A stretch of 21,811 nt of DNA from contig JAHLTZ010000149.1 of the NCBI GenBank assembly GCA_025786725.1, positions 1 through 21,811 on the forward strand. Direction: 5' to 3'. The position numbers and the translations under genes were made by a program. Positions 1 through 21,754 of this stretch are shown piece by piece. The notes under the pieces are model-generated. The model was not told where the DNA came from. It made no database searches and saw only the letters and a list, made by a program, of their open reading frames with translations. Every line of letters begins with the position of its first letter. The first letter of the stretch is position 1. This DNA comes from Syncephalis fuscata. Its lineage: Eukaryota; Zoopagomycota; Zoopagomycetes; Zoopagales; Piptocephalidaceae.

Positions 1-2363
1 GGAGTGCGTAATTTTAATTCAAATCGAAGGAGTGTTGTTGAAAGGAGACAATTCTGTGTAAACAAAGAATACGGCAGTTGTTGCTGTGATGATATGGTTC
101 CCCAGACAACATCGATTGATGACGCAACAGTAGTGCGATGTCGATAACGTTGCTAGTTACGTTGACATGGCGTGCTAGTCAATGGAATCAATGTAATAGC
201 GATAATGAGCGAATGAGAGCAGATTGATTGATTAATTGAACACTTGACCACAACTTTTGACATTTAGACATTTACTAATCGATGTTATGCGTATTTTATA
301 GACAAATCAGTATGACACGCCTTAGTAGTACACTTGCCTTTGTTGGCATCGCCTGCTTACTGGCTACTACGGCGATGGCTAGACCTGATGCTCCAACGTA
401 TAAGCAACCCATCACGACTTCAATGGGTACACCGGAAGTTTGTAGATTTCCATTCTTTTATGATAATAAGTGGTTTTATACCTGCATTGCTACGGATATT
501 GAGCCTGGTAATCCTGGTAAGCCATGGTGCGTGCTTAAGGACGAATATGTGCCAGCCAAGCCTGCAAACAACTGGCTTTACTGCGACATGAGCAAGTTCC
601 AATCTGCTGGTATTTTATCCGATGGCCACCGATACTCCTGTCTTCCGCAAACGCTACCTAATATAACATACACTGGCTGCATTGGTGACACTGAAAAGGG
701 GCCTTCTAGCTGCAAGACTGATAATGACGGTACTGTGGTTACTGGCTCTTGCCTTACTATAAGGTCTCAATTAGATCTCGGTGGTGACAATACTGCTAAA
801 ACCGGACTTGCCATCTCGGTTGGTGCTAACGACGCAAATTCCGATGATGATTCTACCAAAAAAGGCAGCAATAATGTTGTCATTAGCTTGGCTGCAGTGC
901 TCAGCGTCGCCGGCGTAGGCTTATTGGCTGGTCTATTCATTTATCGTCGCCGCCAATCGCGTCAAAATCTATCATGGCGCCAACAAAATAAAGATGAAGG
1001 TCAAATGGAATCGAGCGCAGCTGGCCCCGGATTTGCTGCCATGGCTGCCGTTGGTGCTACCGGCTATCGTGAATCAGCATCAAGCAGTAATATCTTTTCG
1101 CCAGTCAGTCCAGGCGAGCGTATGTACCCAGTTATCAGCACATATACACCTACATTAGGCGACGAGTTAGAGATCCAACCAGGTGATAAGGTCAGCATTC
1201 TTATTGAATATGACGATGGATGGTGCCAGGGTGTCAATCATACACGCGGTGGTCTTAAAGGTGTATTCCCGCGCCATTGTGTTGATATGACTGCTGGTAT
1301 GCCAGTAGATGATGCAGACAAGACGGTCAATTCAAGTACAGCCACCATCGCCGTATAAATCATCCATTTCGCTTTTAATTATCGTACTTTTCTCTCTCTC
1401 TCTCTTGATTCTTTACGCTCACTCCACTTCCACTGCCAACACAATACACCACATTACACCTACGATATATATATACATACATATATAATCACACCAACAA
1501 TAGCCTCCACACCTACATCAGCCACCACCATATTGAACCTTGTTGACAGCCTACCAAATGGCACCGCAATAATGATGATGGCTACTATTATTATTACAGC
1601 TATTATTATTACTATTAACTGTCATCGGTTAACGTAATAATAGTAATGTTGCCGGTATGGCTAACAACAATAAACGATACAATGACGCATACGATCCCGT
1701 TGCGCTGTTGACCAGCACACAGGACTGTATGCAATCAATGGCGTACGTGTGCGTATAGATGTACGTGTTGATGCTTTGTATATGTGTACGCAAATCTATA
1801 TATTATATATCCATAGGTGTAATCGTGTTGTAGTGTTATACTTTTATTATTATTATAATCTTGATTTACACTTGTTACTGATTAGTATTATATTGCTAAC
1901 ATTAACATTGCCATCACACCACCAACATCACTACTACTACCACTACCACAACGATAACTAGCACAATCCATATTCCAATTTCTGTCACAGCCCATCTGTT
2001 CTTTTGGTTAAATGCTTGGTTTATTATTTATCCATAATTCCGTTTATTAATTGAGCCATTTGTGATATGCCCTAATTCACAAAGGTGCTACATGTTTACG
2101 CGTTCATTGTTGATTAAATAACGATGATTTACATATAATATTGAGTATATGGTAGATGAATAGCCATATTAAATACATGTGTTTATGTGTGTGTTTATGT
2201 TTACGTGTGTGTTTATAATATGTATAATAATCATTGTAACAGCTTATACAATTAAATTAAGATGGATCCAATTTAAAAAAGCTTCTATGTGATGACAATG
2301 GCTATATAATAGAAATAATGGCAATAAAATGTTAAGTTAGAAATTAGTAATTTATATTGTAAT
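1..2363 (+). repeat. Left arm of a 2.4-kb inverted repeat (reaches the window edge)
   Basis: Read in reverse complement, this stretch aligns with 3939-6328. Base 1 pairs with 6328 and base 2363 with 3939; identity stops at 2364/3938. Non-coding parts are virtually identical, including microsatellites such as the CT run near 1391-1404. The differences I found outside the diverged coding segment are a 1-nt indel near base 14, substitutions at 1194, 1322 and 1328, and a 2-nt indel near 2311. Together with the 24-nt length difference of the two genes these account exactly for the arm lengths (2363 against 2390). The outer end of the repeat may lie left of the window. The arm contains one gene (312-1358) and about 1 kb of its 3' flank. 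Confidence 0.95.
312..1358 (+). CDS. Type I membrane protein: FN2-like ectodomain, TM, SH3 (copy A)
   Basis: Probable surface receptor or adhesion protein of 348 residues, encoded without introns. The start at 312 is preferred over an upstream in-frame ATG at 282 because it opens directly into a signal peptide ending near TTAMA and has A at -3. An ectodomain follows with Cys at about 44, 58, 73 and 91 in a fibronectin-type-II-like pattern (C-RFPFFY, Y-x-C, PWC, W-x-YC). Four more cysteines lie at about 110-147. A transmembrane helix spans about 189-210, followed by the basic stop-transfer YRRRQSRQ. A C-terminal SH3 domain lies at about 272-326 (TYTPTLGDELEIQPGDKV, then DDGWCQG and GVFP). The architecture recalls yeast Fus1 (TM plus cytoplasmic SH3), but the ectodomain does not. 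It lies in the left inverted-repeat arm. Ligand and role are unknown. Confidence 0.85.
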   Translation: MTRLSSTLAFVGIACLLATTAMARPDAPTYKQPITTSMGTPEVCRFPFFYDNKWFYTCIATDIEPGNPGKPWCVLKDEYVPAKPANNWLYCDMSKFQSAGILSDGHRYSCLPQTLPNITYTGCIGDTEKGPSSCKTDNDGTVVTGSCLTIRSQLDLGGDNTAKTGLAISVGANDANSDDDSTKKGSNNVVISLAAVLSVAGVGLLAGLFIYRRRQSRQNLSWRQQNKDEGQMESSAAGPGFAAMAAVGATGYRESASSSNIFSPVSPGERMYPVISTYTPTLGDELEIQPGDKVSILIEYDDGWCQGVNHTRGGLKGVFPRHCVDMTAGMPVDDADKTVNSSTATIAV

Positions 2364-2443
2364 TAAACGTTTTTGACAGTCTGGTTACTATTCCAGCCAA
2401 CTTGTTTATTTTCGTCAATACATCTATATACCATAACAACTTC
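1359..2443. other. 3' flank of copy A and 5' flank of the RAD51 paralogue; no convincing gene
   Basis: AT-rich, low-complexity DNA with CT, TA, ATT/ATA and ACC/CAT-type simple repeats, almost all of it inside the left arm. A 70-codon open frame at 1749-1961 is also found in mirror image at 4343-4555. It is compositionally simple and I do not consider it a gene. The last 80 bp (2364-2443) are the only unique upstream sequence of the RAD51-paralogue gene, so its promoter probably extends into the arm. Confidence 0.6.
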
Positions 2444-4002
2444 ATGACGCGCCTTTCAAACATTGACGGAATACCAGCAGAAGTACTAGACATATTGTCT
2501 AATGCCAGTATTTACACGGGTAATAATAACATATAGTACGTCAATAGTAGTCATTGCTTTAACTATATACGATTACTTTCAGCTCAAGACGTACTTACTA
2601 CTGACAAACAAACGCTTTGTCAAAAAACAAATCTATCACATTCGGTAAGTTTAAATCTGGTTGAATTGGTTTAATAATGATAAGGCACAGCTAGTTGAAC
2701 AGTTGTATAGTCGAGTAATAAACAGTTTTAATATTTCTCTCAATACTGCTAGCTCGCTTATTACATCAGCTACATCATTTTTTCCAGCTGGGATACTACC
2801 GTCAGGCACTCGATTATCCACTGGCTACACTAGGTAAATATATAGTTTAAATCTGCAACTGCTTAATATCATACTTAAGGATCACTACTATTAGTATAGA
2901 TCGATTATTGAATGGAGGTCTACTGCCAGGTCAAATTACCGAATTATTTGGGCCAGCAGGAGCGGGAAAAACCCAAGTAAATATTTAAATAGTATAACTG
3001 TAGCAGGTGACATTAACTGATTATGAGTCTAGATTGCCTTTAGTACAGTTGTGCAATGTCTTATGTTATTACATTCATTAATGCTTAATCAAACTGATAA
3101 CAATGATAATGATAATAACCAGGATCAAAGTGCTAATGGTACCACTCCATTCATTGCCTATATAGACACGTGTGGCTCATTTTCCGCCCATAAGCTATAT
3201 ACACTTCTTTGTAATCAATGGTCTGACCGTGAAGGTATCTAAATGTTAAATTGATATATAATTTACTAAAACTGGAATCATATAGATTGTATGTCGGCGT
3301 TAAAATATGTTCGCGTATTTTCCTGCAATACTATTTATGATGTATTTAATGCTCTTGAACAATTGGGCGGCTTTAGTAACTCTCAAGTAAGTATAGCAAT
3401 TATAAATATTGAATAACAACCTTAATACTTGATGAGTTAATTACTTACTACTATTCCCGTAAAAGTCACCATTGCTGATTGTTCTTGATTCGGTATCGGC
3501 TGTGTTGGCACCTTTACTATCCAACCAAGCACGTCAAGGTATATAACTGTAATAGTCACTTTTATATGCTATAACTGTGTTTAGGACATGTTCTTATGTC
3601 AGAACTGGCTTATGTCCTTTCCGATATAGCTCACAAACATTCCAGTATAGTCTTGGTAAGCTGAATGGTTTTATTAGCAATTTAAATTTAATCATGCATC
3701 TATAGATATTAAATAGTGCGGTGCGTCAACCTATTGAAGATGACGACGGAATCGCTTTAGATTCTACAGCTCTTTTAGCTATCCAGCCACCTCAGTCAAA
3801 TGCCTTGTCTAAACCAGCTCTGGGTGCTACTTGGTCTTATACACCTCATGCGCGTATCTATATTGCGCGGGATGGTGAATCGCAATCTAAATCTGTTAGA
3901 TACTGTTTACTTGTAAAGTCCAAACAGCAAGCAAGTAGATTACAATATAAATTACTAATTTCTAACTTAACATTTTATTGCCATTATTTAACTATTATAT
4001 AG
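2444..4002 (+). CDS. RAD51 paralogue (XRCC3/Rad57-like recombination ATPase)
   Basis: Nine exons: 2444-2519, 2583-2644, 2691-2833, 2895-2976, 3033-3234, 3286-3386, 3466-3538, 3585-3655, 3706-4002. All phases join into 368 residues, the usual size of the family. The lead-in LSTGYTSIDRLLNGGLLPGQ is typical of RecA/RAD51 proteins. Walker A is GPAGAGKT (about 113-120, followed by Q) and Walker B is LLIVLD (225-230). A PALGATWSY...R element near the C-terminus is also family-like. Such proteins assist RAD51 filament assembly in homologous recombination in the nucleus. XRCC3 versus Rad57 cannot be settled by eye. An Asn/Asp-rich insertion sits in exon 5. The gene fills the loop of the inverted repeat, and its last about 20 residues are encoded by the right arm, so the native tail may have been altered. 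Confidence 0.88.
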
Positions 4003-4945
4003 CCATTGTCATCACATAGAAGCTTTTTTAAATTGGATCCATCTTAATTTAATTGTATAAGCTGTTACAATGATTATTATACATATTATAAACACACACG
4101 TAAACATAAACACACACATAAACACATGTATTTAATATGGCTATTCATCTACCATATACTCAATATTATATGTAAATCATCGTTATTTAATCAACAATGA
4201 ACGCGTAAACATGTAGCACCTTTGTGAATTAGGGCATATCACAAATGGCTCAATTAATAAACGGAATTATGGATAAATAATAAACCAAGCATTTAACCAA
4301 AAGAACAGATGGGCTGTGACAGAAATTGGAATATGGATTGTGCTAGTTATCGTTGTGGTAGTGGTAGTAGTAGTGATGTTGGTGGTGTGATGGCAATGTT
4401 AATGTTAGCAATATAATACTAATCAGTAACAAGTGTAAATCAAGATTATAATAATAATAAAAGTATAACACTACAACACGATTACACCTATGGATATATA
4501 ATATATAGATTTGCGTACACATATACAAAGCATCAACACGTACATCTATACGCACACGTACGCCATTGATTGCATACAGTCCTGTGTGCTGGTCAACAGC
4601 GCAACGGGATCGTATGCGTCATTGTATCGTTTATTGTTGTTAGCCATACCGGCAACATTACTATTATTACGTTAACCGATGACAGTTAATAGTAATAATA
4701 ATAGCTGTAATAATAATAGTAGCCATCATCATTATTGCGGTGCCATTTGGTAGGCTGTCAACAAGGTTCAATATGGTGGTGGCTGATGTAGGTGTGGAGG
4801 CTATTGTTGGTGTGATTATATATGTATGTATATATATATCGTAGGTGTAATGTGGTGTATTGTGTTGGCAGTGGAAGTGGAGTGAGCGTAAAGAATCAAG
4901 AGAGAGAGAGAGAAAAGTACGATAATTAAAAGCGAAATGGATGAT
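4003..4945. other. 3' flank of copy B inside the right arm; no gene seen
   Basis: Mirror image of 1359-2322, with the same simple repeats. It separates the convergent RAD51-paralogue and copy B genes. No open frame with believable composition was found. Confidence 0.6.
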
Positions 4946-6016
4946 TTATACGGCGATGGTGGCTGTACTTGAATTAACCGTTTTGTCTGCATCATCTACT
5001 GGCATACCAGCAGTCATATCAACACAATGGCGCGGGAATACACCTTTAAGACCACCGCGTGTATGATTGACACCCTGGCACCATCCATCGTCATATTCAA
5101 TAAGAATGCCGACCTTATCACCTGGTTGGATCTCTAACTCGTCGCCTAATGTAGGTGTATATGTGCTAACTACAGGATATAGGCATTCTGTAGGACTAAG
5201 TGGTGAAAGTATTTGACTGTTTTCTTCAGAACCGTAATAACTTGATGTATCGTTATTGATTCTAGAGGTACTTGCAGCAGTCATAGGAACAGTAAGTTCA
5301 GTACCAATAGTACTTGGATCAATTCGTTGCATACTCCTGTCTTCGTACTGCATCGACATACTTTGTCGTGATTGCCGACGACGATATACAAATAAACCAG
5401 CAAGTAGAGCAATGGCACCTACAAAAAATGTAATACCTAGAACGCCACCAAGACCAATGCTGCTTTTATTGGGTGAGTCGGTGTTTTCGGTTACAAGAGC
5501 CGCTTTGGAAACAGAATCGACACTTTCCAAGTTTTGTTTTACACTTAAACATGCTCGGTAATCTTGTTTACCACCAACGTCAACGAGACATTGGAATATG
5601 CCGTTTTTAGTATCAGCACTACATCCCATATATGTCTCATTTTTGACTTTTTGAGGAAGACAGTCTTTACGCACGCCATCAACTATAGCACCAGGCGCAT
5701 GGAATGTTTTCATATCACAGTAGGCCCATTCGGGAGATTTGGCATTCTGAGAGACATATCCTTTTTTAAGCATGCACCATGGTTTGTCGTCCGTGCTACC
5801 AAGAGAAATACAAGTTGACCAATACTTTTTACGACTGAAAAATGGTAGCTCGCACGATGTTGGCGTGCCCATAGCAACCGTGATGTTTTTACTATCCTGT
5901 GGATTGTTTGTAGTATCCTGTGGGTTATCCTGTGAGTTATCAGGTCTAGCCATCGCCGTAGTAGCCAGTAAGCAGGCGATGCCAACAAAGGCAAGTGTAC
6001 TACTAAGGCGTGTCAT
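4946..6016 (-). CDS. Type I membrane protein: FN2-like ectodomain, TM, SH3 (copy B)
   Basis: Inverted paralogue of copy A, 356 residues from the start at 6016 (an in-frame ATG also exists at 6046). Signal peptide and SH3 domain are nearly residue-for-residue those of copy A. From just after the signal-peptide cleavage region to just before the SH3 domain the protein is only moderately similar. It has a Asn/Asp/Gln-rich spacer, then an FN2-like unit (C-ELPFF, PWC, W-x-YC), then the second four-cysteine unit, a different TM helix and a longer Ser/Thr-rich juxtamembrane segment. Codons in this middle part also differ at many synonymous sites, so it is an old divergence set between near-identical flanks. 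Role unknown; membrane localisation is inferred from the signal peptide and TM helix. Confidence 0.85.
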   Translation of the reverse strand: MTRLSSTLAFVGIACLLATTAMARPDNSQDNPQDTTNNPQDSKNITVAMGTPTSCELPFFSRKKYWSTCISLGSTDDKPWCMLKKGYVSQNAKSPEWAYCDMKTFHAPGAIVDGVRKDCLPQKVKNETYMGCSADTKNGIFQCLVDVGGKQDYRACLSVKQNLESVDSVSKAALVTENTDSPNKSSIGLGGVLGITFFVGAIALLAGLFVYRRRQSRQSMSMQYEDRSMQRIDPSTIGTELTVPMTAASTSRINNDTSSYYGSEENSQILSPLSPTECLYPVVSTYTPTLGDELEIQPGDKVGILIEYDDGWCQGVNHTRGGLKGVFPRHCVDMTAGMPVDDADKTVNSSTATIAV

Positions 6017-6046
6017 ACTGATTTGTCTATAAAATACGCATAACAT

Positions 6047-7572
6047 CGATTAGTAAATGTCTAAATGTCAAAAGTTGTGGTCAAGTGTTCAATTAATCAA
6101 TCAATCTGCTCTCATTCGCTCATTATCGCTATTACATTGATTCCATTGACTAGCACGCCATGTCAACGTAACTAGCAACGTTATCGACATCGCACTACTG
6201 TTGCGTCATCAATCGATGTTGTCTGGGGAACCATATCATCACAGCAACAACTGCCGTATTCTTTGTTTACACAGAATTGTCTCCTTTCAACAACACTCCT
6301 TCGATTTGAATTAACAATTACGCACTCCTGCCACGTCATCTTTAAACACCGCCACATTACATTACATCATCATCATAATAGCAATAATATGGATATGGAT
6401 ATGGATAGCGCTATACTAGCATTATAATATAATGTGCTAAGTCACATTTGTACAACATCCAATAGAGTACACGGATGGATTGGCCATTATCGCTATAGCC
6501 CAGTACTTACAGACTACTGTCCAATGCTTACTAGTGGATATCAAAAAGGTAAATTGAAAATAAAGAACAGAGAACCAGCTCCTTTTGACTAGATATGCCG
6601 TGCAATAAGAAGCAGGAATCGAGAAGCAATTGAACTGGTATCGTATACTACACCGTACGTACACGCAAATAAGAAGAAAGAAAACAAAGTATACGTGCTG
6701 CAGACAGAAAGGTCGACTGCACTACAAGTTTGGAAATAATATACTGCAGTAAAGCTTTGCGTTGCGTTCAAATGAATAAAAGTAAACGCTATTGAATAAA
6801 AGAAAGCCAATAGCAATTGCTAATAGGTGCAATAACTATAGACTATGAAGATATGAAGTTAAATGCAAGTCGGAATGGCCAACAACAAAGGAAAGAAGGC
6901 CAAAGGCTTCAAAGACTAAGACTAGCGACAGCTATTCAGATAGACAATTAAGTAAAGTGTGAGTGAGAGTGAAAGAGTGAGTTAGGAAAGAGAAGCGAGT
7001 AGAAGCGTGCAGGATAGCAAAGGATAGCGTGTTAAAACCTGATGCGCATGCCACTTACCATGCAATCCACATGAATCCACAATAATAATTAAGAACAGGT
7101 TAAGAGAAAAAGGCACAAGGTTAAACAACAATGCCTGCTTTCTGTGAAAGGCGCGACAAGGCAAAACTGTCCTACACATGTGCATCTAGAATACATGCAA
7201 TTTACTTTTATACTATTCATAGTTGCACATCTTACAGTGCCGAGCAGCAATTAAGGGAGTCGAGTATCATCAATGCAGCCACTATTCCTACCACTACCAA
7301 CACTATTATTTTTATTATTGCTGCTGCTAGTGCTGTAACATCTATGGTGTTACAAATAGCAATGAACAAGTTTATTTCAATCTAATTCTGCATAATTTCA
7401 TGGTACCAAGAGTATTGGCACATATGGACTGGCAGAACGCATGTACTATGTCGTGCTAGTTTGTGCCATGTATCAATAACCGGTAATGTAAAGTAATGTG
7501 TGGTATTAGATAGACAATGAATGAAAACAAATATAAACTCTTTTCTATTACATATGCGACTAGAAACCAATA
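6047..7572. other. Upstream region of copy B and unique DNA up to the J-protein gene
   Basis: 6047-6328 is the 5' flank of copy B and matches 1-281 of the left arm. From 6329 the DNA is unique: a short GGATAT repeat near 6389-6406, a purine-rich GAGT/GAAA tract near 6958-7010, and no recognisable gene. A weak two-exon reading on the plus strand (about 6441-6545 joined to 6594-6738) has plausible splice signals but resembles no family I know and lacks an obvious start. I do not annotate it as a gene. Confidence 0.5.
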
Positions 7573-8977
7573 TTAAGAAGAAGTAAATCGTTGGAATTCA
7601 TCACACATCGGCAAAGGAGCCCGTTCTGCACGACGAACAGCCTCCTCGTCATAGCCAATGCCGAACCAGCCTTTGGCCCGTTGGATCTCCTGTTGCCGTC
7701 CATGGCGTTCCTGGCGACAACGTCGTTCCAAATGATAGGCGTAGTCGTTCTCGATTGTTTGCTCATAACGGGCCAATCGCTGCTTATTGCCACCCACATA
7801 CGAGTTAAGATCGCGGGCATTCACATAGTATGGCACGTGACGGGGTGTCGTATGTTGTTGTGAATGATGATTGTAAGTGCGACTGAATGAATAGGTCGGC
7901 TCAGAAGGCCCAGAGAAGATATTACTTGAAAAGGTAATAAATAAAAGGAGTAGCAGTGGTAGTAATTGAACTAAATAACCAAAACCTGTCGTATTCTCTT
8001 CTCGAGCTGCTCTACGCTGTTGTTGTTGTTGTTGTTGAGCTGCTCGACCACCACTATTAAATCGTTGAAATCTTACACCATTGCCCATAAATGATGCTGA
8101 TGAAAAGCCTGTATTTATATTAATTAATTAATAAATTACATATATACATATTATAATCGACATCAATAATCTATTTACCTTCATTAAATCCACCATTGAA
8201 AAACATATTAAATAATTGTTCAGGCGTAATTTCTGATTCAAAATTAAATGCAGCACCGCCACCACCATGATGAAATCCAGGACTGCCACCACCACCTCGA
8301 GATTCTGGATCAGCACCATATCGATCATAATGCTCTCGTTTATCTTGATCACTTAATATTGTAAATGCTTTACTAACCACTAAATAAATAAATCAATATC
8401 TATTTAATTAATAATTGATATTAATCAACAACTTACACTTGAATGCTTCATCTGCACCAGGTGCATTATTTTTATCTGGATGCAATTGAAGCGCCAGCTA
8501 CACTGATGTTAATTTCAAGCTATTTATTTCTGCTAGACTAATTACCTTGCGATATGCTTTTTTAACATGTACTTCAGTGGCAACCTTTTCAAGTTCTAAA
8601 ATACCATAGAAATCACTTTTTGAACATGATAACACACGCTTTACCGCTATTGTATTCTCTTCCGTATAACTGGCAGACGCTTTTGATGAAGAGGGCCCAC
8701 TGTCAGTTGATGCAGTGCGTGCACCACTACCACTGCCGGTACTTGTTGCAGTACGTTGTCGCAATTCGGGCTGTGCATTTGTACTGCGAGCTGATGAATC
8801 GGCCGTACTAGCTGTTTCGGCCAGTACAAGCTTTTCTATCAGCGATTCAGCCTCATTCGTTGGGTAGAGATTATTTGATTTACGTGCAAATCTCAATGCC
8901 CCTGCTACATCACCTTCATCGCGTTTCCGCCGCGCTATACCAATGCAACGAGACGCTTCGTCTTTATTCATCTCCAT
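7573..8977 (-). CDS. DNAJB12/Hlj1-type ER membrane J-protein
   Basis: Four exons on the minus strand: 8977-8546, 8497-8437, 8379-8179, 8108-7573, joining in phase to 409 residues. The N-terminus (MEMNKDEASRCIGIARRKRD) is typical of DNAJB12/DNAJB14 proteins. A Ser/Thr-rich linker is followed by a J-domain at about 123-186 with the HPD triad at 150-152, split by the first intron just before it. Then come a Gly/Phe-rich region, a polyglutamine run of about seven residues, one hydrophobic helix at about 273-294 (LLPLLLLLF), and a C-terminal part resembling the DUF1977 region of the family. Such proteins recruit cytosolic Hsp70 to the ER membrane for quality control and degradation of membrane proteins. 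Length matches the family. The start fits both context and family N-terminus. Confidence 0.92.
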
Positions 8978-12630: not shown

Positions 12631-13614
12631 CTAATTGAGACTAGCATAATATCTTTCATTATATGGATCATTAATGGTTACATTAGAGGCAGCCAGTAAT
12701 ATAGGCGTTTCTAATTCCATATTTCTAGATTGGAGCAGTGCTTGTAGATCGTTGGTTCTACCGGCGGAATCTGGCCATGTATTATCGGGATAGCAGCATA
12801 GCATAGCTCGACGCGTATGTAGAAAGTCTGTCAAGTAGGCGCGTTCAGATCTTTGACCACGCTGCCCGGTAAGATTAATGATTCTTTGGATATTAATATC
12901 CGGTTCTGTAAGATGCCAACCATGTTGCACGATTGTATCGTAGAATATAGTGATACCCAGCGCTGATTGAATATTAAGACGGTGGGCGAATCGAAGGGCT
13001 GGTTCAAAGTACATTTCACGCGCTAGTTTTAGTTGAGCATTGCGAAAGACCGCATCGTTCTGCGCTGTTCTACGCCAGGCATTAGGAAAGCCATTTAGTT
13101 TATTGACACTGCTACGCTGTGTATCACATGGATCGAGCGAGGCAAGACGTCGTAGTTCAGGTAGGTAAGAGGCAAATGGATTATTGTCGTCAAGTCGTTG
13201 TCGATTGTATCGTTCAATGACCATTAGTGCATCGCCGGTGGCAGTGGTAAATCCAACCACACCGGCCGTAAAGCCGCGTTTATCGTTAAGATTCTCTATA
13301 TAGTCATAATGAGGTCGGTCATCGCCATTCTCAAATGCACTTGTTATACGTCGAGCCACCATGGCTGTGTATTCGCTTGCATCGGCCATTGGCCAGTGGT
13401 CAGTATCGGGGAACTCGCCAACGACCGATTCCGAGTATGAGTTTGCACAGCTATTTGAGCTTTTCTTTAAACGTGAAAACTTAAACGCCGAACATAAATC
13501 ATTATCAGGTAGATAATTTCCCGAGCAGTAACGCCTTGCGCCATCGACCATACAACAACAAGCTGTAATGATCAATACAATACTTAATAAATGATAATAC
13601 GCCGCGAACAACAT
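12631..13614 (-). CDS. Secreted GH46 chitosanase
   Basis: Intronless, 327 residues from the ATG at 13614. A hydrophobic N-terminus (LLSIVLIITACCCMVDGA) is a likely signal peptide, followed by a short Cys-containing stretch and a GH46 catalytic domain from about residue 75 to the end. The family signature is clear: SAFENG carries the presumed general acid Glu95. HYDYIENLNDKRGFTAGVVG carries the presumed base Asp111 and Thr116, and is followed by FTTATGD. Downstream motifs such as ALGITIFYDTIVQHG, YLTDFLHTRRAML and the C-terminal NDPYN also match bacterial GH46 enzymes. The enzyme would hydrolyse beta-1,4-glucosamine bonds in chitosan outside the cell. GH46 is mainly bacterial; fungi mostly use GH75, so bacterial transfer is plausible. 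Composition does not stand out from its neighbours. Confidence 0.92.
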   Translation of the reverse strand: MLFAAYYHLLSIVLIITACCCMVDGARRYCSGNYLPDNDLCSAFKFSRLKKSSNSCANSYSESVVGEFPDTDHWPMADASEYTAMVARRITSAFENGDDRPHYDYIENLNDKRGFTAGVVGFTTATGDALMVIERYNRQRLDDNNPFASYLPELRRLASLDPCDTQRSSVNKLNGFPNAWRRTAQNDAVFRNAQLKLAREMYFEPALRFAHRLNIQSALGITIFYDTIVQHGWHLTEPDINIQRIINLTGQRGQRSERAYLTDFLHTRRAMLCCYPDNTWPDSAGRTNDLQALLQSRNMELETPILLAASNVTINDPYNERYYASLN

Positions 13615-15408: not shown

Positions 15409-17679
15409 ATGGCAATGCAAACAAACGATAATATAATTGATCAATCAGAGGAACGTGTTACCATTTATCCACTACATCCACGACCCGGTGCTATTAGAGA
15501 AATTAGTCGAAGTTCAAAGCTATTTGCTTTAATGAAAGAGGATGGTCTCTCGGATGTCGTTGTTACGCGTGGCACATTGAATGGATTGCGCGGTCGATAT
15601 CTCACCTCACTAGCCAATATGCCCAGGGCCAATGAGGAGAGAACAGCAGCGTCAACATGGCCAGTTGAAGCGGTAGAGATGTTATCGGATACACTGCGTG
15701 AACAACAACAACACGAATCAACACGACCCGTCCATCGATCATGGCGTCGTTCCATAAGAAGATCCTGCTTCCATTGGCGTAAGTGACTACAAATATATTT
15801 AGTATTACAAGTGGGCAGTTAATTAATAGTTTGTGTAATTAGGCCAGCGTATTTTATTCGGTAGTTTAGCGTTAATTGTTCAAGCTGCATTATTCTATTT
15901 TGCGTGGACTGATACCACGTTTCGTAGACGATATCATGGTGCACTTGAATTCTATGGCCCTACCTCGCTTATACTTGCCCGTTCTGCTGCCAGTGTTATT
16001 AATGTACAAATGGGCATATTGTTATTTACGTTGTGTCGTATTACAATCACGTATTTACGTAAAATTATTCCAAATCGAATTATTCCACTTGATAATATTC
16101 ATGTAGCACACCGTGTTCTTGCCTGGTCGATTATGGCTATGACACTAGTTCATATCATCGGTCACTATTGGAGTATATACAATGTCCGTCGGTTAATCGC
16201 CACCACACATAGAGACAATCATCGTGGTCATAATGGCTATAATAGTCATAATAATAGCAATGACGACACGTTAATGCAAATTCTATTACATCCAGCTAGT
16301 TTAACTGGACATGCTATGCTTATTATCATCCTATTAATGGCCTTTACGTCATTTGGTAAGCCATACTATTCCATACTACAGTTCACAAATGCTAATCTAA
16401 CTGTAATGAAGCGTATGTAAGAAAGCGCAATTATGAAATGTTTTCCTATACACATCAATTATACATGGCATTTATACCACTGCTTTTATTACATGGCGCA
16501 TTTTGTTTTCTTAAAAGCGACCAGAAACCTGAATGCTCAACAATGGGCGGTACATTTTGGCATTATGGTCTACCCGGACTTGTTTGGTATATTGGTGAAC
16601 GTATTTACATTGCCGTTTATCATAGCCGTTCTACAACCATTCTTGGTGTCTATGAACATCCATCACAAGTGATTGAAATACATGTGGCACGACCGCCTAA
16701 TTTCCATTATGGTACCGGTCAATGGGCCTATCTCTCTGTAGCTGAGGCAAGTCCATGGCAGAAACATCCATTTACGATTACATCGGCGCCGGAGGAAAAG
16801 AACCATATTTGTTTTCATATTCGGGTTGTTGGCGACTGGACACAACGATTGGCTGCTCAATTGAACTGCTCACTCGATATAACAAGTCCATTCTCGGCAC
16901 TTTTACGATCCCAGGCCACCAGTACAAATAACAGTAGTGCTGTTAGTAATAATGGTATTAGCAATACAGCATTAATGCCACCCATTCAAATCGATGGCCC
17001 TTATGGTGCCGTATGTGATCATGTACTCGATTACAAAGTGGCAGTGCTTGTGGCTGGTGGTATTGGTGTAACACCATTTGTCTCGACACTTAAAAGTATT
17101 TGGTAATAATCAACATGTATAATATAGCAATACTAATTCAATTGTAGGCTTCAATGGACAAATGCCTCCCATGAAATGAAATTGAAAAAAGTGTATTTTA
17201 TTTGGATTTGCCGTGATTTCAAGGTAAAACTAGTCATTATTATTATTATTATTATTCATTAGTATTGGCATTGATGATAGGCATTTGAATGGTTTTACGA
17301 CTTGTTGGCCACTTTAGAAGATGGCCGTATAAGCTCGCTATTATCAATGCGTATCTATGTTACTGGACAGTTAGATTTAGAGCAGATTTGGAATGTGGCT
17401 ATGCGAGCCGGTCATAATGAAGATGCTCTAACCGGCTGGCACATGCCCACCTTCTATGGTCGACCTAATTTCAATGTTCTATTTCATGACCTTACCGAAT
17501 CACATCCTCAGACAGATATTGGTCTATTTTGTTGTGGCCCTCACTCACTTACTGCCACACTACGCCGTCACTGTCAACGCTACACATTGGCCAAAGGATC
17601 AGGCACGCGATTTTATTTTCACAAAGGTAAAAGAAATGAAAATGAATTGATTTTGGATACACACACTTTTGTGCGTTAA
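15409..17679 (+). CDS. NADPH oxidase (NOX family, gp91phox-like)
   Basis: Five exons (15409-15778, 15843-16355, 16412-17102, 17148-17223, 17281-17679) join in phase to 682 residues. The enzyme passes electrons from cytosolic NADPH through FAD and two haems to O2, making superoxide. Haem-ligand pairs have exact NOX spacing: His213/His227 (13 residues between) and His309/His322 (12 between). Further marks are NRIIP, the FAD motif HPFT at 413-416, NADPH motif GGIGVTPF at 510-517, and CCGP near the C-terminus. An Asn/Ser-rich insertion precedes IDGPYG. The N-terminus (about 120 residues) shows no EF-hand, so it is not an obvious calcium-regulated NoxC/NOX5 type. The C-terminus has FYFHKG followed by an extension rather than ending in the family-typical KENF. 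A TTG-initiated longer frame (15343) was rejected in favour of the ATG. Confidence 0.93.
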
Positions 17680-17771: not shown

Positions 17772-18782
17772 CTAATGGTTAATATGCTTTAACGCATCTG
17801 AAAATTCGTGGGCAATACGTTGCATTGCACGGTTATTGGCTAGTATTAATATGTAAGTAGGTTATTAACAATACAATACTAGTGTATTGATACTTACCTA
17901 TAATAGGCAGAATTGTTTGTAGTAGTTCGTGCTTCTTTAATCCCTAAAATAAATGTTAATAATAAATATTACAATTCTATTTTATTAATTACACAAATGG
18001 TTGGTTCCCAGGATGAATCTGTTTTAGCTGTTGTTGTCTTGGATGTATCATTCATAGTCGTTGTGGTAACCGTGAAATCCACAGCCATTCTATTATAGTC
18101 AATTAATTAACCAATTATAATATAATATAATATAATAACTTACGGATAAGAGGGTCCTAATAAATTTCTGCATAATTCTTCTGTCTTATCAATTAAACTA
18201 TCATTGGTCAATCGACGTACGTATTTCAATAACCAACGTTGATATTCTTCGGGTGATGCAAGTAATTCAGCACTCATTAATTGAGACTATTTAGCAATCA
18301 ACATTAATATACTTATGCACTTTTATCAATAGATCTATTTACCTCTAAATGATCAATTGATAGTAATGCTTGTTGTTGTTGTTCCGATCGTAATTGATCA
18401 CTACGTTGAACACGTCCATGATCAGTACAAGTACGTTCAGCAATAATCTGAGCCACAGTTAATGGACCTCCGCCATGTACATCAGGATTCAATGCAGTGG
18501 CCACTGGTGCAAAATACTCTGATGCTGCATACCACGCATCAACAATACGTGACCATGTCTTCATATTTTGATCATAGGCAAATGCACAGCCATTTGATGT
18601 ACATAGTACAGGTGTGCCATTAGCATGCACACAAGCATCAGTAATAGTAACACCATTACTGAGCGTATCAGATGAATTAGCTGTTGTAGCTGATTCTTTG
18701 TATAAAATGGCGGCAATGGATTCATTCGACAGAATAGCCAGACGTTCTTTAATATCCCTGTAACAACATTAGATATCTACAT

Positions 18783-18831
<49 letters not shown>

Positions 18832-21754
18832 GATTTATACTTACCAGATAGATAATTGGCCAACTGATGTTAAACATAGTAAATATCGACCATTACAATC
18901 AAGAAACGATGCCGGCGCATTTAGACAAAGACATGGAAATAGTCTATTAATTACAAATGTTATCAATATGTATATATGTATAATATAATATATATGACAC
19001 TTTTGATAACTTACCGCCGTCCATTGGGCGAGAATACATGAATAGTGCCATCTTCACAAGCCGCAGCACTAAATACAGAACTGGCCACCAATAGAAGAGT
19101 AGAACTGGATAATAATTGTTTCCATAGTATTTTACCTTGACGTGAACATATAATATGAGATGCACCTATAACAATAACAACCGTCAATTATCCATTATTT
19201 ATTAATTCATAAACCTACCACTTTGATTGGGTATTGAATTATGACACTCAAATACTAAAGACTGGTCACTGACCCGACTACGAGAGAATACTGAATGAAC
19301 CTTGGGTATGCTTAGACGAATAGATGATACCGCCAATTCAGGTGCCAAGAATGTGGCCCGTGTCTAATAAGTATAATCAATATGTCATTATTAACAATAG
19401 TGACTACTTACCTCAATAGAATGGGTTGAGGTCATTTTACTTGGACCTTGATTTGCCGCATCACGGACATCTGATACCGATCGTTTCCGCCCCACTACAA
19501 CCGTCTCTAATCCACTTAATGGCATAGCCCGTGAAGGAGGAGCAAGCTCCATGGCATGGTCCATAGCCATTGAATGTATAGATGATGTATTCTATTGATA
19601 TATCGTTATTAATAACTATTAAATACTAAACAGTGTAGTATTACCCGGAATCCTGGTGTAGGCGTGTAGGTGTAGGCGGTGCTGATGGAAATGAATGCAT
19701 CGGTGCAGTATGTGATGCTGTTGTTGTTAGTCTATTGAATACATTTATTATAATAACTATATCAACAATATATTAATAATAGTTACCCTCTAATGAACTG
19801 TGGCTGGATACGTCGTCTACCATCTGCAGTAATAGTTACTCGTTGTGGCTGTGTTGGCGCAGTAGTAGTATCTTGTCCACTATGCGTGGATACCATGGTT
19901 GTTATAGTATCTACTGCTTTACTCTGTAATGGTGGCACTGATCCACTACTAACTGATTCTTTATCATTTATTGTGGATCTGCCCATAAGCATAGCAAGTC
20001 GATTAGATGACTGTGTGGCTTGAGTAACTGCATGTTCTTGTTCCATTTCTAATTGTTCTGGTGTTTCGGCTAATTGAATTGATTTCACTTGTAATCCAAG
20101 ACTTGAGAAATGTGCCTCCTAATTAAATAATAATAATAATAATAATAATAATACATTCAATCAGTCAGTCATATATATCTATATATATATATATAATAGT
20201 TGTTACTTGTTCATGATTGGTAAGCGGTTCTCCTAATTCTTGTTCATTCATTTGAATAACAGCAACTGTTCCATCTAATGAACAAGCATAGACTACACAG
20301 CCATCTTTCGACCTATTCATTATAACATATCAAATAGTCGGTTATCTAGTTGTTATTCATTTAAATCATCCTATTACCAGGCAATATCCAAAACACCTTG
20401 TGTGAATATGTCATGCGCTACTAATAAAGATCTTGATCGAGCAGTTAACCAAATGATACTGAATGATCTTGACTGCCTACAGCACAAAGTGCACCAATTT
20501 GACCTGATTGCTGTACTAATGAATCATCATCTTTAGATACTGGTAGACGGAAGAGTCGTGGATTAAATCGCTATTATAATGAGTATTAAATAATTAGTAA
20601 CTAATCAGATCCATTAGTATTTACATACTACTACTTCAACTGCTGCATCATGTCCAATAAAATGAACATCATTCTTCCAAGTATCTCTATGAATGACCGC
20701 AGCTGATGCAACCCCTTTGTTAGAAGCATTGGCCGTCACTAATTGGACACCATCTGGTGACCAGCTGTATGCTCAATATTATACAATTAGTTATGGGACC
20801 ATTATCTATCATATACTCCGTACCTTGGTCGACAAAAGAATGTTGTCGATGTCGATTTTGTATACGGTGCAGTAATTGTCTTTTCTATTTGCCAGTCATG
20901 AACACGCCATACAATTGCTGACTTGTCATCCGACTTGTATTATTGTAAATATAATGCCGATATTGTATATATTATGATTACTATACATATACTTACTTGT
21001 GTGGCCAAGTATTTACCCATAGGATCCCATGCTATTCCCTTAACAAATCCTTGATGTTGTTCAAGTTTCTTAATCATTTCTGTATGAATATAATGCTACT
21101 GATTAATATCAAGTGACTAAGTAATTGAAATGACAATATGAATAGTTACCAAATGTCTGTCCATTCCATATAATCACCTTACTATCAAGGCCACATGATG
21201 CAAGATATTGATTATCTGGAGACCAGGCTAGATCAGCCACATCTACCAAATAATACAACAGGGTTATTACTAGCTAATTGATTGGATACAATAAACAATT
21301 TAATACCTGATTCATGGCCAACAAGTCGTTTAATTGCCTTCCAATTTTCAAGGTTCTGTGCTCCATCTAAACTACCAAATACCCTGCCCATACTATCAGG
21401 AGACCTATATATAAATATTGTTATGCTGTTCTTATCTAACATGATAGCAGTAGTAGCCCTAGTAATAGTTACTATTACCGCTAATGAATGCAACTTACGT
21501 GTCAAGCATCCAAATAACAATGATTTTATCATCTGACCCGGTGGCTAAATACTGGCCATTTTTACTAGACCATTTAACACATAATACAGCACCTAAAGTG
21601 CATTTATCATGTTAAAAAATACATACAATATATTCTGTATTAACAAGTAGATTACCGTCATGAAGTGCTAACGTGCAAAGAAGTGCGCCAGGTGGTTCTG
21701 GTACACGGCTATGCTTAAGTATTACTTCAGTGCTCCATATTTTCACTTTGGTAT
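17772..21754 (-). CDS. HIRA: HIRA/Hir1 histone chaperone, 5' end outside the window, apparent frameshift
   Basis: Twenty exons, high to low: 21754-21656, 21592-21499, 21404-21307, 21242-21150, 21079-20997, 20933-20824, 20764-20629, 20570-20378, 20312-20207, 20118-19787, 19731-19645 (or from 19717), 19591-19412, 19363-19219, 19165-19015, 18943-18845, 18757-18343, 18286-18144, 18089-17993, 17943-17898, 17839-17772. They encode the N-terminal WD40 propeller (VADLAWSPDNQYLASCGLDS; FVKGIAWDPMGKYLATQ), the Asf1-binding B-domain motif ADGRRRIQPQF, and the C-terminal HIRA domain (ACEDGTIHVFS; EYQRWLLKYVRRL; GLKKHELLQTILPII). HIRA deposits H3.3-H4 independently of replication. Only the first 30-odd residues are missing beyond the edge. 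Exon 20570-20378 is one base short: both halves match HIRA, but in different frames, changing near 20451. It is convergent with NOX, 92 bp apart. Confidence 0.9.
18786..18832. repeat. ATCT tetranucleotide microsatellite in a HIRA intron
   Basis: About eleven consecutive ATCT units lie inside the intron between the HIRA exons 18943-18845 and 18757-18343. Probably length-polymorphic and neutral. Confidence 0.9.
20124..20152. repeat. AAT microsatellite in a HIRA intron
   Basis: A run of AAT/ATA units followed by TA-rich sequence near 20170-20196 makes up most of the intron between HIRA exons 20312-20207 and 20118-19787. Confidence 0.75.

Follow-up and report, generated by a model that had tools for sequence, protein, structure and literature searches.

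Structure of the locus

The window analysed here is the whole of a 21,811 bp contig of Syncephalis fuscata, JAHLTZ010000149.1 (referred to as C56), from an assembly of 28.95 Mb in 299 contigs. At positions 1-6328 it carries an inverted repeat with arms at 1-2363 and 3939-6328, and each arm contains one gene, A or B, for a protein with a signal peptide, a fibronectin type II (fn2) ectodomain, a transmembrane (TM) segment and an SH3 domain. A RAD51D-like gene lies in the spacer. A related copy of the region was found on another contig, C1. Arm homology stops at 2363 and 3939. C56 starts inside the left arm; on C1 the arms (C1:842507-845284 and C1:846860-849663) extend 412 bp further outward, and the right arm of the window extends to 6740. 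The features of the locus are:

1-2363, plus strand: left arm of the inverted repeat, with the contig start inside the arm (arm-to-arm alignment and comparison with C1)
3939-6740, minus strand: right arm, of which 6329-6740 is partnered only on C1 (C1:842507-842918)
2364-3938, no strand: spacer, in the opposite orientation on C1 with respect to the flanks on either side, with 16 of 1575 sites different
312-1358, plus strand: gene A, 348 aa, a single open frame with an alternative in-frame ATG upstream at 282
4946-6016, minus strand: gene B, 356 aa, a single open frame with the same architecture as A
2444-4002, plus strand: RAD51D-like gene, 368 aa, nine exons in a hand-made splice model

Chance would not produce a mirror repeat so long, and two contigs carry it, with different substitutions. 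An earlier note on this DNA had described an inverted repeat in which the flanking arm DNA, including the leader and SH3 codons, is near-identical and the block between them only moderately similar, and this was confirmed. The extent it gave, 1 to 6328, holds for the repeat on C56, but not for the ends of the arms, which lie 412 bp further out. Its description of the genes as head-to-head was wrong: A on the plus strand and B on the minus strand face each other and are convergent, tail-to-tail.

The products of genes A and B

Both proteins have a signal peptide, an fn2 domain, a second Cys-rich part (recognised by eye), one TM segment, a basic juxtamembrane stretch (RRRQSRQ in A), a linker and a C-terminal SH3 domain. 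For A, hydropathy reveals the leader and one further segment; the TM segment of B was identified by eye, and the SH3 domains of both were assigned by Pfam, where SH3 and fn2 were the only domains above the cut-off for either protein. The domains, and the variable block described below, are located as follows:

441-584, plus strand: fn2 domain of A (Pfam, PF00040)
5717-5854, minus strand: fn2 domain of B (Pfam)
1131-1283, plus strand: SH3 domain of A (Pfam, PF14604), with the right edge of the variable block inside its first residues
5021-5173, minus strand: SH3 domain of B (Pfam)
390-1136, plus strand: variable block of A, covering the ectodomain, TM segment, juxtamembrane part and first SH3 residues (arm alignment)
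5168-5938, minus strand: variable block of B (arm alignment)

The best matches of A among solved structures were SH3 domains (vinexin, E 9e-6), and the matches of its fn2 domain were weak (C-type mannose receptor 2, E 0.002; fibronectin, 0.04; factor XII, 0.06). An AlphaFold2 model of A, made from a two-row alignment, had a mean pLDDT of 33.6 and was not used for a fold search.

A and B are 56 % identical overall, and within the variable block 91 of 238 aligned residues are shared. The exteriors, TM segments and juxtamembrane parts differ, as do the residues after the SH3 domain on C1. About 0.7 kb of upstream DNA is near-identical, with the C1 arms differing at 3 of 802 sites, leader included. 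Because the upstream DNA, leader, SH3 domain and 3' region are the same or near-identical, A and B are probably co-expressed and probably address the same SH3 partners. The simplest reading of the sequences is that they are paired receptors, or paired cell-wall sensors, that would engage different partners outside the cell.

A variable block with sharp edges

The two arms differ at none of 389 positions in 1-389, where there is one 1-nt indel, and at 3 of 1227 in 1137-2363, where there is one 2-nt indel. Between these segments, 322 of 708 aligned sites differ (45.5 %), with 102 gap columns besides. Identity falls at base 390, between codons 26 and 27, and ranges from 0.12 to 0.78 in 40-column windows within the block; the right edge, 1136/1137, falls some two residues inside the SH3 match. 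Outside the block, one further difference between A and B, at site 1194, is present in both haplotypes. The earlier note had placed a sharp change in identity at about 392 and 1134 and proposed sliding windows to check it, and the abrupt edges measured here, at 389/390 and 1136/1137 with the lone site 1194, agree with that prediction.

The many synonymous differences that the same note had seen were also found. Fourfold sites differ between A and B at 22 of 39 comparable positions in the block; the leader shows no difference at 16 such sites and the tail one at 36. By the NG86 method, nonsynonymous divergence (dN) in the block is 0.56 and synonymous divergence (dS) 2.66 on C56 and 2.47 on C1, a size at which dS is a rough figure only. 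For the fn2 part alone, dS is 1.65 and 1.53 (NG86) or 1.55 and 1.29 (YN00). A recent simple duplication followed by positive selection was rejected as an explanation, as near-saturated synonymous change adjoins almost identical non-coding DNA.

A probable second haplotype on C1

C1:846860-864744 aligns with C56:3939-21811 at 98.7 % identity. In the right flank the two contigs are collinear and differ at 108 of 15032 sites; when this flank is divided into 15 bins of 1 kb plus one of 71 bp, 14 of the 16 contain differences. C56 is apparently the other haplotype of this region of C1. Retained haplotigs are plausible in this assembly, because the small contigs C43 and C298 likewise pair with larger contigs at ~99 % over 3.1 kb. 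For the 9.5 kb of C1 on the left side of the palindrome, the assembly yielded no second copy, only a 167-bp repeat (71 %) inside C1 itself.

On C1, A is again the left-hand gene and B the right-hand one, and the stretch matching 1137-5167 is inverted. The spacer is therefore present in the assembly in both orientations, and it is this that distinguishes the haplotypes; the ectodomains, which the earlier note had called swapped, occupy the same positions in both.

Between haplotypes, the block of A differs at 3 of 747 sites and that of B at 5 of 771. All eight differences are synonymous, leaving no amino acid difference in either block, and the probability of finding no nonsynonymous change among eight if changes were randomly placed is ~7e-6. 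Both ectodomains therefore look constrained, in a pattern that resembles purifying selection, two haplotypes being few.

The RAD51D-like gene in the spacer

The best match of the spliced spacer-gene model among solved structures is RAD51 homolog 4 (RAD51D; E 1.7e-27), and Pfam assigns it to Rad51. Its final ~20 codons and stop, up to 4002, are within the right arm. The same end is found in three of the four arms, and the frame is open to the stop in both orientations of the spacer, with four residues different between haplotypes. Because the gene ends inside an arm, a flip of the spacer would cost it little. The position of RAD51D in the spacer may be due to chance.

Concerted evolution of the arms

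Four arms were compared, the left and right arms of C56 (L56 and R56) and those of C1 (L1 and R1), which represent two haplotypes in one assembly. Positions 1-389 and 1137-2363 were scored in all four; the outer 412 bp, of which C56 has one copy, were omitted. Among substitutions shared by two arms against two, 11 group the arms by haplotype, one (site 1194) groups them by gene and none is crossed. The remaining variable columns are private substitutions (10 in R1, two in L1 and two in R56) and 11 columns involving gaps, six of them haplotype-specific. In a sign test with equal chance as the null, P is 0.003, to be read with the reservation that adjacent sites are not independent.

The tree of these flanks is ((L56,R56),(L1,R1)) and that of the block is ((A56,A1),(B56,B1)), the reverse topology, each with bootstrap 100 in 200 replicates. 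The arms are more alike within than between haplotypes, patchily, as in an inverted repeat under concerted evolution. A divergence peak with homogenised flanks is present, and both of its forms are common to the two haplotypes and constrained, as in an island of divergence. Because haplotype-specific sites are common to both arms, we attribute the pattern to conversion between arms, and the four sequences point to concerted evolution that has continued since the haplotypes split and halts at the block. Of the models in the earlier note, conversion sparing the variable block is thus the one that the second haplotype supports, with 11 sites against one and opposite trees. The support is strong on the SH3 and 3' side and, on the promoter and leader side, comes from one site.

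Several observations weigh against this reading or narrow it. Ten of the 11 haplotype-specific sites fall between 1271 and 2208, leaving site 210 as the only one on the promoter and leader side; L1 and R1 are identical across the 390 bases on that side. Some informative sites are adjacent (1494/1495 and 1927/1928), hence there were fewer events than sites. In the outer 412 bp, compared among R56, L1 and R1, there are four variable columns (two in which L1 is distinct, one in which R56 is distinct and one private to R1), and these decide nothing, as three copies cannot be sorted. R1 has eight private changes at 1220-1362, which alter five residues after the SH3 domain; these changes make the homogenisation uneven and leave A and B with unlike tails on C1. 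The left arm of C56, which holds the unused RAD51D end, lacks 2 nt at 2312. We infer that C56 is allelic to this part of C1, though it may instead be a segmental duplication, and the inversion and the arm sequences depend on the assembler, with two haplotypes from one assembly.

The private cluster in the C1 copy of B is at C1:847872-848096, in codons 338-348 of B. It is perhaps an older B tail that escaped conversion.

Origin of the arrangement

We consider it likely that the locus is an old inverted duplication in which conversion between the arms has spared the block and some crossovers have flipped the RAD51D spacer. A gene for a single-pass receptor with a signal peptide, fn2 ectodomain, TM segment and SH3 tail would have been duplicated inversely around RAD51D long ago. 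Non-allelic recombination would since have recopied the SH3 tail and 3' DNA between the arms and, less certainly, the promoter and leader. Conversion would halt at the block of 740-770 bp because its divergence prevents pairing, and selection may also discard events that make A and B alike. Part of the recombination events would be resolved as crossovers, inverting the spacer. A and B would then have different extracellular partners with similar expression and a similar SH3 output.

A different origin, in which A and B were ancient balanced, idiomorph-like alleles placed in cis by a recent inverted duplication, would account for the sharp edges and the diverged block without a long history of conversion, the flanks being alike as those of former alleles, and the present data do not date the duplication. 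On its own, however, it cannot yield 11 haplotype-specific shared sites against one gene-specific site, and conversion would be needed anyway; we regard it as unlikely. An assembly artefact, whether collapsed arms with a random spacer orientation or a chimera from a hairpin read, is suggested by the start of C56 inside an arm, by the lack of a second copy of the sequence left of the palindrome in the searches described above, and by the dependence of arms and orientation on the assembly. We think it quite improbable, given that C1 has two unlike flanks, that neither the blocks nor the spacer are mirror images, that L56 and R56 as well as L1 and R1 are non-identical, and that C56 differs from C1 across most of the right flank; these points do not extend to the spacer orientation. 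The hairpin-read version was rejected on account of the non-mirror blocks, spacer and flanks.

The constant leader and tail, variable exterior and sharp edges would also fit a system of antigenic-variation or allorecognition type, in which ectodomain modules are exchanged as cassettes drawn from a repertoire; the earlier note had favoured cassette exchange as one of two models. Searches of the assembly for further cassettes with the same leader and SH3 ends found none. All four fn2 matches are accounted for by genes A and B on the two contigs, C56 and C1, and protein searches for further leader, block or tail copies returned only an SH3 match to A on C261 (33 % identity, E 7e-4); these were six-frame searches, giving lower bounds. 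Nor was an fn2 match found in 14 control genomes, which carries little weight. A and B are unchanged in position between the haplotypes, and their blocks do not differ in any amino acid, whereas high allelic diversity is expected of antigenic or allorecognition genes. Cassette exchange is therefore very improbable, a repertoire of cassettes was rejected, and the analogy with antigenic and allorecognition systems is weakened, within the limits of two haplotypes and of the six-frame searches. Nor do A and B correspond to mating-type transcription factors held as cassettes, Pfam giving SH3 and fn2 only.

Comparison with known systems

The closest parallel to an old inverted duplication with conversion and occasional crossovers is the flip/flop region of Saccharomyces chromosome XIV. 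Passages of PMC9731477 describe conversion between its inverted repeats, YNL018C and YNL034W, with some crossovers, and the likeness extends to paralogs in the arms, homogenisation within lineages and two spacer orientations. According to the same passages, its founder paralogs share 97 % amino acid identity, and 15 genes occupy a spacer of 24 kb. In S. fuscata, in contrast, a coding block of 740-770 bp is exempt, and a single gene lies in a spacer of 1.6 kb.

Divergence peaks in converted duplicates are described in excerpts on exon 5 of the red and green opsins, where selection is held to separate two functions despite conversion (PMC3924837, in which RHD/RHCE is named alongside only in the title of a reference), and on Tigriopus GOT1 (PMC3728101). 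As far as these excerpts go, they share with the present locus a region of high divergence flanked by low divergence under conversion. Unlike in the opsin type of peak, the whole stretch from ectodomain to juxtamembrane part is involved here, synonymous change is near saturation, the setting is an inverted repeat and, site 1194 excepted, the edges are sharp to a few bases. Gene conversion with a divergence peak is a known process, which is unusually sharp in this case.

In Ogataea polymorpha, mating-type switching proceeds by a 19 kb inversion that picks between two alternative genes, according to parts of PMC5720833. A and B differ in being homologous membrane receptors with nearly the same promoters, which keep their positions while the spacer has flipped. 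The Ogataea inversion reportedly runs through inverted repeats. The Dictyostelium pair tgrB1/tgrC1, described in part of a preprint (PMC12324515), consists of extremely polymorphic surface proteins whose locus shows local rearrangements, including inversions. A surface-protein pair at a rearranging locus is the likeness; unlike in that account, the A and B blocks are invariant in amino acids in the two haplotypes.

Among the literature matches listed, no fungal fn2-TM-SH3 protein was recognised from titles or the starts of abstracts, and no converted inverted repeat with a receptor-ectodomain block of this size was found, which is no proof of absence. Yeast Fus1 also spans the membrane once and carries an SH3 domain at its C-terminus, and it is not known to have an fn2 ectodomain. 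Its likeness to A and B is one of architecture (single TM segment and C-terminal SH3).

Other genes and other SH3 matches

Further genes were identified to the right of the repeat in the window:

7573-8977, minus strand: parts of a protein resembling DnaJ and containing DUF1977 (the DnaJ match falls short of the cut-off)
12631-13614, minus strand: GH46 (chitosanase family) gene (Pfam, E 5e-45)
16010-17679, plus strand: exons of a ferric-reductase/NADPH-oxidase-like gene (Ferric_reduct, FAD_binding_8 and NAD_binding_6)
18313-20046, minus strand: exons of a HIRA-like gene (HIRA_B above cut-off, Hira below cut-off)

Elsewhere in the assembly, reading frames were inspected for 31 of the 33 SH3_9 matches listed, all but those at C289:190654 and C258:55270. 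At locus L020 (C261:31145-31318, minus strand), a TM segment precedes the SH3 domain that is 33 % identical to that of A. Frames with a hydrophobic segment ahead of SH3 were also seen at L041 (C226), which has a propeller-like exterior and may resemble Rax2, and at L027 (C278), which may resemble Pex13.

Implications

A more far-reaching proposal is that A and B are long-kept, idiomorph-like recognition specificities in cis, with the palindrome equalising promoter, leader and tail and shielding the ectodomain. We hold this to be distinctly unlikely. If it were true, crossovers in the outer arms would swap the places of A and B, and the repeat would be a possible slow switch in mating, fusion or recognition.

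On the reading preferred here, an old inverted duplication with conversion that spares the block, the locus is a natural experiment on conversion versus selection within one gene, with two haplotypes, four arms, sharp edges and opposite trees. It suggests that a palindrome can hold the regulation and output of a receptor pair near-constant even as divergence of the exterior approaches saturation. It also suggests that a spacer can invert with its repair gene staying open. The fn2-TM-SH3 pair, to which all four fn2 matches found in the assembly belong, provides candidates for ligand testing.

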